From Vampirovibrio sp. (GTDB taxonomy: Bacteria; Cyanobacteriota; Vampirovibrionia; Vampirovibrionales; Vampirovibrionaceae): a stretch of 38,376 nt of DNA. The position numbers and the translations under genes were made by a program. Where the stretch lies: assembly GCA_027448865.1 (NCBI GenBank), contig DAIDMR010000245.1, positions 1 through 38,376 of the forward strand. Reading direction: 5' to 3'. Positions 6,227 to 12,898 of this stretch are shown piece after piece. Within the stretch, counting starts at the first letter, position 1; every line of letters begins with the position of its first letter. The notes beneath the pieces were generated by a model that saw only the letters and a program-made list of their open reading frames with translations, did not search any database and was not told where the DNA came from.

Positions 6227-7336
6227 ATGTCCCCCCGTAAAATCAATCCCTCCCTTGGGGATGAGGAAATGCAGACACCTGAAAAACTTGAGTTTGAAAA
6301 GTTACTGCAGCAATATGATTATGCCTTTAAGCGCGGTGAGATCGTTCGGGGGACGATCATCGCCTTGGAGTCCAGCGGCGCCCTGGTTGATATTGGTGCA
6401 AAAACCGCTGCGTTCCTGCCGAATAAAGAAGTCGCCTCACCTTACGCGACTGCCCAATCCCTGGTGAAGCCAGGCGAGAGCTTTGATTTTTACATCCTCT
6501 TTGAGGAAGACGAAGACGGTCAGCTAACCCTGTCCTTGCGTCGGGTGCAAACCGCCCAAAACTGGAACACCCTGGAAGAGTTGATGAACAACGACACCGT
6601 GGTGCAGTGCAAAGTCACCGCCGTGGTCAAGGGTGGCCTGCTGGTCGATGTGATGGGCCTGCGTGGCTTCATTCCTTCCAGCCACCTGCGGGTTCGTCAG
6701 CAACTGGAAGAATTGGTGGGCAACGAGCTGCCCGCGAAAATTATCAACCTGGATCGTCAGCGCAACAACATCATCCTGTCTCACCGCAAGATGATGGCCG
6801 AGCAAATGGCCGAGCAGCGCAAAGACCTGTTCTCCAAGCTGCACGAAGGCGCTTTGGTTCAGGGCGAAGTGGTTCGTCTCACCGACTTCGGCGCGTTCGT
6901 CGATTTGGGTGGCGTGGATGGCTTGCTGCCCCTGTCTCAAATGTCTTGGCGCTGGGTGGAGCATCCCTCCGACATCCTCAGCATCGGCGACAAGATTCAG
7001 GTGGAAGTCATTGGCATCGATCACGACAAGCAACGGGTCAGCCTCTCCATCAAAGGTCAGCATGCCGATCCCTGGAACGAAGTTACCAAGGAACTGGGTA
7101 TGGGCGACGAAGTGGAAGGCACCATTACCCGCATGAAGCACTTCGGCGCTTTTGTGGAAGTGTATCCCGGTGTGGAAGCCCTGTTGCCCAGCAAAGACAT
7201 TGCCGAATATGAGCATCGCAACAACGTGAAGCTGGATGTGGGCCAAACCATCAAAACATACATCATCAAGTTCAGCCCGGACGAGCGCCGCATCAGCTTG
7301 AGCTTCCACGCTCCGGCCACTGCCAACGCCGAGTAA
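6227..7336 (+). CDS. rpsA: 30S ribosomal protein S1-like protein (multiple S1 domains)
   Basis: Repeated S1 motifs (GEIVRGTIIALESSGALVDIGAKTAAFLP; GALVQGEVVRLTDFGAFVDLGGVDGLLPLSQMSW; GDEVEGTITRMKHFGAFVEVYPGVEALLPSKD). Start chosen at ATG 6227 preceded by 'ttggaggtat'. Confidence 0.93.
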   Translation: MSPRKINPSLGDEEMQTPEKLEFEKLLQQYDYAFKRGEIVRGTIIALESSGALVDIGAKTAAFLPNKEVASPYATAQSLVKPGESFDFYILFEEDEDGQLTLSLRRVQTAQNWNTLEELMNNDTVVQCKVTAVVKGGLLVDVMGLRGFIPSSHLRVRQQLEELVGNELPAKIINLDRQRNNIILSHRKMMAEQMAEQRKDLFSKLHEGALVQGEVVRLTDFGAFVDLGGVDGLLPLSQMSWRWVEHPSDILSIGDKIQVEVIGIDHDKQRVSLSIKGQHADPWNEVTKELGMGDEVEGTITRMKHFGAFVEVYPGVEALLPSKDIAEYEHRNNVKLDVGQTIKTYIIKFSPDERRISLSFHAPATANAE

Positions 7337-10032: not shown

Positions 10033-10178
10033 TCAGGCCCTGGCCGACGCTGGGGATCGATTCAGTCTGATTCGTCTGGCTGATCCATTTAACTGATTCA
10101 TTCCAATCTGAGCGCACGCCTGTAAACCGCCCCGTCACTTGCTTTGAGTCGTCCTGTCATCCCCACGCAAAATGAAGA

Positions 10179-10205
10179 CTGGATTCCCGCCTCCGCGGGA
10201 ATGAC
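10179..10205 (-). repeat. Dispersed 27-bp repeat (CTGGATTCCCGCCTCCGCGGGAATGAC)
   Basis: Same unit as 7525-7551 with 1 nt difference. Confidence 0.85.
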
Positions 10206-10288
10206 AATTGCACCATAAGACAAGATTCACTGCCAGAAAGGAAACGCCCCATCAATTCCTTGTGACGCGGTAACGCGCAAGAAACAGC

Positions 10289-10315
10289 CTGGATTCCCGC
10301 CTCCGCGGAAATGAC
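10289..10315 (-). repeat. Dispersed 27-bp repeat (CTGGATTCCCGCCTCCGCGGAAATGAC)
   Basis: Near-identical to the copy at 10179-10205. Confidence 0.85.
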
Positions 10316-10446
10316 AAATATTTTGCAATGGAACGCGAAGGATCTTCTTCCATTTTCAAGAGGGCTTGCCGTTTCTGGATCAAAGTTCATGGACTCTAGG
10401 CCGAAACAGATTACAGTGGAAAAACACCGTAATCTCGGGAGTCCGA

Positions 10447-11859: not shown

Positions 11860-12150
11860 GGTCGTTATTGTCTCCCGTTGCGATGCCTGCTGAAAGATTC
11901 AGCTTAATAGTTCGCAGCCTGATGTGATTTGCACCGGCCCATAAGCGCTCACAAAGCCGAAGCTTCAGTCAGAACCTCTGGCATCAGGCGGTTCGGTCTA
12001 TTTCTGAATGAAAACGAATGATTAAAGCGAATATATAAGACTGTATGGATTGTCCGCCCGAAAGTCTATTACCCAAACAGGCAGAACCAGCCCCACTGCT
12101 CAGCAAAAGGCTTTCAATCAGGCCAGGCAGCGTTCACTGATAAAACTGCC

Positions 12151-12190
12151 AAAAAAAGAAAAAAGCACAACCCAAAAAATGGCGTTGTGC
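12151..12190 (-). terminator. Strong Rho-independent terminator (minus strand)
   Basis: On minus strand: GCACAAC-gccattttttggg-GTTGTGC-TTTTTTCTTTTTTT. Confidence 0.88.
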
Positions 12191-12285
12191 GCGCTATGAG
12201 GAGTTAACTGTAAGTGCAAGTTGAAGTGAAGCTTTGAAAGTCAGAAGGAGGAGTATCGAAATGCCAGTGAGGAGTGAAATCTTAT
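12151..12285 (-). ncRNA. Candidate small RNA with three ACUCCUC anti-SD (Yfr1-like) motifs
   Basis: Minus strand: promoter-like TTAAAG-17-TATATT, then ...UUUCACUCCUCACUGG...GAUACUCCUCCUUC...GUUAACUCCUCAUAG... and the intrinsic terminator; no ORF. Inferred, not verified. Confidence 0.55.
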
Positions 12286-12415
12286 GTTATTAATATAGAC
12301 CAGAGTCCCAAAAACTTTAATTTTAGACCTTAAAGCCCGTCCCCCAAGGCTTTCACCCCATAAAAACCCCTCATTTCCCTGAAAAACACCCCAAAACAGA
12401 AACAATTCTTAACAA

Positions 12416-12444
12416 AACCAGTTGTGCCTCACTCACAACCGGTT
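12416..12444 (-). terminator. Terminator-like hairpin (minus strand)
   Basis: Minus: AACCgGTTGTG-agtgagg-CACAACtGGTT-TTGTT; stem with one mismatch and a short T-rich tail. Confidence 0.5.
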
Positions 12445-12898
12445 ATGACAGCTTCCCGGGATTGACAGGTAAGTGGCTCGAAAGCCCCGACGACAACAAC
12501 GAAGGCAAGGAGACATGTGGATTTCGCCGAAGGAGAGCGGGCACGGCCTTGCCCGGAGCCCCCTCCAGTATGCTCCCCCGTTGCTGTTGCTCTTGGGCGG
12601 CCCCGCTGGCCTCATTCTGGAGAAATTGCAAGAGGCACTCTTCGTTCAAATTCATCATGCGTACAGCTACCTACCTGGACTCCCCGTGGGGAAACCGCCT
12701 ACACCGTTTCATACTAACCAAATTACGCACCGTCATCATCGACCAACCGATTTAAATTTCCCTACGACCCGGGATCTACAGTTGTTGGGGTAGAGCCCGA
12801 ATGAAGTTCGGGGCGGACTCCCCCCGGTTCACAAATCCCTGTACTATTGAAGATGAGCATTATGGTTTCAAAATCGGTGAGGGAGTGTTAAACACCAT

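Follow-up and report, generated by a model that had tools for sequence, protein, structure and literature searches.

The Locus and Its Features

The window, by which we mean the whole stretch of DNA analyzed (38,376 nt, positions 1 to 38,376 of contig DAIDMR010000245.1), comes from a genome of Vampirovibrio, whose lineage is the Vampirovibrionales within the Cyanobacteriota/Melainabacteria group. On this contig, a putative sRNA gene occupies 12281-12151 of the minus strand. It is flanked by conserved unknown genes, which lead to rpe on one side and, on the other, to an S-adenosylhomocysteinase-like gene, named from reading its sequence; in the family Vampirovibrionaceae (f1), conservation extends over the downstream region in the direction of rpe.

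The gene is preceded by a promoter-like element. Its -35-like hexamer TTAAAG (12320-12315, minus strand), inside the conserved AAATTAAAGTTTTTGG, is separated by 17 nt from a -10-like hexamer TATATT (12297-12292, minus strand), inside the block TCTATATTAATAACATAAGA, and CATAAG (12286-12281, minus strand) offers an alternative -10. Across seven aligned Vampirovibrio genomes, 13 of 16 columns were invariant in the -35 region and 13 of 20 in the -10 block. At the other end stands an intrinsic terminator, GCACAAC..GUUGUGC followed by a U-tract (12190-12151, minus strand), with the stem-loop itself at 12190-12165 and the T-tract after it. All 13 distinct homologs retain complete pairing of the 7-bp stem, which also covaries, although each of the three compensatory pairs comes from a single genome, G006. 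A generic consensus scan flagged neither the promoter nor the terminator, and the -35-like hexamer is no sigma-70 consensus match; support for both elements must therefore come from conservation and covariation. On that basis, the promoter-like element and the terminator of the original prediction both held up, each at the place where it had been read. A conserved CCTTGG element (window positions 12330-12350) was also observed upstream of the -35-like box in the Vampirovibrio genomes, as well as in one genome of a second family of the order (f2), and is perhaps a regulator site.

Between promoter and terminator, the RNA is poor in G and nearly devoid of structure, just as had been predicted. 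G makes up 10% of 12290-12191, and centroid folds of six homologs left nearly everything outside the terminator unpaired. The 5' part of this body is a leader (12281-12229, minus strand) carrying the first two of three ACTCCTC copies, at 12275-12269 and 12254-12248; the third lies at 12204-12198, close to the terminator (all minus strand). Three copies in a 100-nt stretch are not expected from composition, as none of 20,000 dinucleotide shuffles of 12290-12191 contained them.

The stretch has no conserved coding capacity. No ORF was conserved on either strand, and near the conserved segment described below every one of the six frames contains stops, which removes the alternative of a plus-strand ORF using the ACTCCTC sites as Shine-Dalgarno (SD) sequences. 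The earlier statement that the minus strand bears no ORF was nearly right: a TTG-started frame of 54 codons (12405-12241, minus strand) exists mechanically but is not conserved.

An Invariant Segment With a Single Conserved Seed

Conservation along the RNA is highly uneven. Adjoining the terminator is a segment of 38 nt, CACUUCAACUUGCACUUACAGUUAACUCCUCAUAGCGC (12228-12191, minus strand), in which all 38 columns were identical among the seven Vampirovibrio genomes, whereas only 7 of 48 columns of the leader were invariant within the genus, a pattern suggestive of purifying selection. The segment holds the putative anti-SD seed, UAACUCCUC (12206-12198, minus strand), which includes the third ACUCCUC copy. 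The core AG(U)UAACUCCUC[A/G]UA[G/A]CGC is kept in both f1 and f2, and the seed was present in 11 of the 12 genomes of the order possessing the RNA; the remaining genome, G009, has a degenerate UUUCUC at the place of the seed and an ACTCCTC slightly upstream.

The original prediction had placed its emphasis on the triplication of ACUCCUC. Three copies are indeed present where it located them, but only the third is kept in the corresponding intergenic regions of related genomes. Copy 1, whose 9-of-11 match to the cyanobacterial sRNA Yfr1 can be seen in the window, is lost in the near species G003 and G004, where it reads CGCTCCG and CACTCCG, respectively; copy 2 is partly preserved as CTCCTCCTT. 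Judging from these alignments, visible selection acts on the terminator-adjacent copy only, and triplication is not what has been conserved. What the leader retains across genera is its G-poverty, while its sequence drifts: positions -95..-4, upstream of the core, contained 4-10% G in all f1 genomes except G009.

Distribution in the Vampirovibrionales

Of the 18 genomes analyzed from the order, 12 each gave one strong copy with a covariance model of the core, representing 8 of 12 genera and two families, f1 and f2. The carriers comprise all five Vampirovibrio genomes, three other f1 genera and four f2 genera. A refined model scored them at E-values from 1e-20 to 4e-13, with the next match at E = 0.06, and a search of relatives likewise returned homologs in the same genus and family. 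We also scanned 85,462 species of named genomes for exact 18-mer matches with GTTAACTCCTCATAGCGC. Of the nine records obtained, six had the terminator following, all from Vampirovibrio or 'Melainabacteria' and including the isolate NCIMB 11383; the matches in Carboxydocella, Flavobacteriales and Acidobacteriaceae lacked the terminator and were set aside as chance.

Neither the model nor a pattern search found the RNA in G005, G008 or the third family of the order, and inspection of their syntenic places, beside the gene that is its neighbor in f1, showed none either. The rest of the class, as sampled, contained no convincing copy, and class-wide matches in G019 and G022 (E about 0.003-0.004) were rejected on inspection, having no shared core in context. 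We observed in G008 a G-poor, C/U-rich stretch (C2:316558-316627; L085:1380-1600) that contains ACTCCCCTCCCCC and AATCGCGC as well as a terminator hairpin (E 0.5), which might be a degenerate homolog of the sRNA. Tandem repeats with copies of the sRNA terminator hairpin were seen in G009 (L014, about 6300-6580), directly downstream of the sRNA gene.

The RNA is a real, previously undescribed sRNA family of the Vampirovibrionales, and our literature search returned no paper naming Vampirovibrio together with an sRNA.

Comparison With Yfr1 and Other Anti-SD sRNAs

The original prediction went further and described the RNA as an expanded Yfr1. Yfr1 is 54-69 nt long, carries ACUCCUCACAC in an unpaired stretch of 16-20 nt between a 5' stem-loop of 6-10 bp and the terminator, and mostly neighbors guaB or trxA (PMC2190773). 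Where its action has been validated, it works via the conserved motif, for the most part at sites shortly before start codons (PMC6974561), and we took this as our mechanistic template. The Vampirovibrio RNA is similar in several respects: an unpaired ACUCCUCA stands just before a 3' intrinsic terminator hairpin with a U-tail in both, both are presumed to pair at translation starts, and both are single-copy and deeply conserved within their own lineages.

It differs from Yfr1 in other respects. The Vampirovibrio RNA has no 5' hairpin; centroid folds of six homologs contained no such helix of 6 bp or more, and one f2 homolog has a weak 4-bp helix. Its length, predicted from the promoter-to-terminator distance before any processing, would be about 125-130 nt, about twice that of Yfr1. 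The conserved copy, ACUCCUCAUAG, matches the Yfr1 undecamer ACUCCUCACAC at 8 of 11 positions, with seed flanks UUAACUCCUCAUAGCGC rather than ACUCCUCACAC, and the undecamer ACTCCTCACAC occurs nowhere in the Vampirovibrio genome that was searched. Neither guaB nor trxA neighbors the Vampirovibrionales locus. The Rfam model of Yfr1 (RF01116) had been proposed as a check, and with it none of 39 relatives gave a match at the locus, even when hits up to E ≤ 10 were allowed; among its controls, one genome passed the cut-off, and Synechococcus elongatus was the sole cyanobacterium among those that matched. No other Rfam family matched the sRNA either, gathering and permissive thresholds both having been tried for Yfr1. 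Weak RF01116 matches occurred elsewhere in the relatives (best E 0.012, in G008), and the best of these, when inspected, did not lie at the sRNA locus.

The RNA does not pass as a Yfr1 in these tests and is not shown to be one; by analogy, it probably works like one. It could still be a strongly diverged ortholog of Yfr1, handed down from the ancestor that Cyanobacteria and Vampirovibrionia share, whose 5' hairpin disappeared and whose leader grew long. The sister relationship of the two lineages would accord with such a history, as would the shared order of parts, an unpaired ACUCCUCA and then a terminator, and the same expected action (PMC2190773, PMC6974561). The missing RF01116 match, the 8-of-11 undecamer, the lack of a 5' stem-loop and the different neighbors argue against it, however, as does the absence of the RNA both from the order's third family and from what was sampled of the remaining class, which looks as if the RNA were convergent or born within its lineage, and we consider this ancestry improbable.

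Other anti-SD sRNAs offer looser parallels. Yfr10 of Prochlorococcus is a second sRNA in which an anti-SD motif is found in another structural setting (PMC6778093). Its motif is that of Yfr1 and sits in a hairpin loop, whereas the Vampirovibrio motif differs and the body around it is wholly unstructured. C-rich anti-SD sRNAs such as RsaE and FsrA direct short, C/U-rich, unpaired seeds at the SD, and these seeds are of UCCCC-type sequence and lie in hairpin loops or short linkers. As a general comparison, the Vampirovibrio seed is alike in being C/U-rich, unpaired and SD-directed, but differs in both setting and sequence.

Candidate Targets

The best target candidate, which we put forward tentatively on the strength of predicted pairing, is the mRNA for a 75-aa protein in which four cysteines are invariant (WSxSAVxCxxRxAxCxGC...), encoded at L274:1470-1725 (G003 C1:234842) with orthologs in L271-L283. 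Between members from two families of the order, identity of the protein is about 60-100%. It belongs to no Pfam or NCBIfam family, and structure prediction gave a helical model of moderate-to-low confidence that had no fold match. The leader of the gene, GUGGGAU..GAGGAGUU(A/U), is largely conserved: GAGGAGTTA precedes the gene in G006 and in each of the five Vampirovibrio genomes, while the SD reads GAGGAGTTT in G007 and G014, GAGGAGTC in G016, AGGAGTTA in G010 and AGGAGTTT in G009. Among most other orthologous genes compared, the SD was not kept across genera, with at least one exception in a flagellin (GTTAAGGAGAAC).

The duplex with the leader GAGGAGUUA and the start region was predicted at -30.5, -29.8 and -30.2 kcal/mol in G003, G001 and G002, respectively; the leaders in G000 and G004 are identical, with the same pairing of about -30 kcal/mol. 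Within Vampirovibrio, about 28 nt of the sRNA (12225-12198), all of it inside the genus-invariant segment, would pair with the mRNA from the SD over the start codon into the first codons, and outside the genus the SD complementarity is shorter. The gene ranked second of 983 by duplex energy in a 1.18-Mb part of G003, a ranking built on home-made gene calls and on energies without an accessibility term. For nine other candidates whose orthologs were recovered, a comparable energy was not kept across G003, G001 and G002. In a single genome, duplex energy has no significance by itself: 23 of 40 shuffled segments found some gene at -30.5 kcal/mol or better. Moreover, G008 has no detectable sRNA, yet TAGAGGAGTTTGGG, a GAGGAGTTT-type leader, lies upstream of its 75-aa gene. 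Energies computed with the full-length RNA told us nothing, as any mRNA leader rich in purines will pair with the C/U-rich leader of the sRNA.

The mRNAs of HU and of some flagellins are weaker candidates, with HU placed second; its TCTGAGGAGTTGT is kept within the genus. Sites of the form GAGGAGTTA-ATG are rare and showed no overall excess over reversed controls. GAGGAGTTA precedes flagellin genes in G003 and G004, and in G003 three flagellins are among only nine of 983 genes preceded by GAGGAGT. We rejected flagellins as the main targets, however: their energy ranks were 42, 55 and 87 at best (of 983), the paralogs share descent, and G005 and G008, which lack the sRNA, also carry AAGGAGTTTG before flagellins. 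Tandem clusters of about eight flagellin genes (L151 in G004, L154 in G003) were observed to have diverging SDs, namely AGGAGAA, GAGGAGTTA and GAGGAGTCA. No porin or outer-membrane target of the kind described for Yfr1 stood out in the energy ranking, which was partly annotated.

Proposed Mechanism and Alternatives

The promoter-like region, the terminator, the non-coding character of the RNA and its conserved, unpaired, SD-complementary seed would place it in the functional class of trans-acting anti-SD sRNAs, and conservation gives good support to the original designation as an anti-SD sRNA. The best explanation of the locus, and a likely one, is an sRNA acting in trans to repress translation through pairing of UUAACUCCUC with SD sites. 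From these features we infer transcription, pairing in vivo and repression as follows. An independent gene on the minus strand would be transcribed from about 12281-12284 to about 12151, yielding a trans-acting RNA of about 125-130 nt specific to the Vampirovibrionales. The near-absence of G would hold its body single-stranded, and the 3' segment beside the terminator would present the invariant seed UUAACUCCUC. This seed is expected to base-pair with GAGGAGUU(A) at the SD sites of selected mRNAs and thereby to block ribosome binding on them.

If true, this would be a lineage-wide regulatory RNA in the order of an algae-preying bacterium that is sister to Cyanobacteria, and one that comes with a concrete, testable target candidate. 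A further question that it touches on is whether anti-SD sRNAs built around an ACUCCUC core, universal in Cyanobacteria as Yfr1, had a single origin or arose repeatedly. A more elaborate version, in which the family was born independently of Yfr1 and its extended pairing of about 28 nt coevolved with the four-cysteine protein as a dedicated regulator-target pair, strikes us as speculative and somewhat unlikely.

The unpaired, C/U-rich body could instead act as a decoy that titrates a protein (Rho, S1 or some other RNA-binding protein) or competes generally for SD recognition. Preservation of composition (4-10% G) but not of sequence in the leader across genera is what a protein-binding platform might show, and shuffled cores paired as strongly overall with mRNA starts as the real one did. 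Composition-driven binding would have no need, however, of a 38-nt segment invariant in sequence or of exact seed flanks kept in two families, and we judge there to be little chance that a decoy accounts for the RNA.

Gene Neighborhood

It is very improbable that the RNA serves the gene downstream in cis, as a leader or attenuator, or is the mere 3' end or terminator of an upstream transcript. In each of the five Vampirovibrio genomes a CBS-domain-like gene does follow on the same strand at a distance of about 250-350 nt, but this linkage is confined to the genus (the gene was not detected at the corresponding position in G007 or G009), neither G006 nor f2 shares any of the neighbors, and the sRNA has a conserved promoter region and a terminator of its own.

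Two further features of the surrounding DNA were observed. A small ORF of 71 amino acids (window positions 12443-12658, minus strand) has no Pfam match, but each of the five Vampirovibrio genomes has a counterpart upstream of the sRNA, at a greater distance in G002, and it may be a real small gene. The intergenic stretch at 10098-10390 of the window has frames reading VIPAEAGIQ and FPRRRESS, which are typical of a dispersed palindromic repeat.
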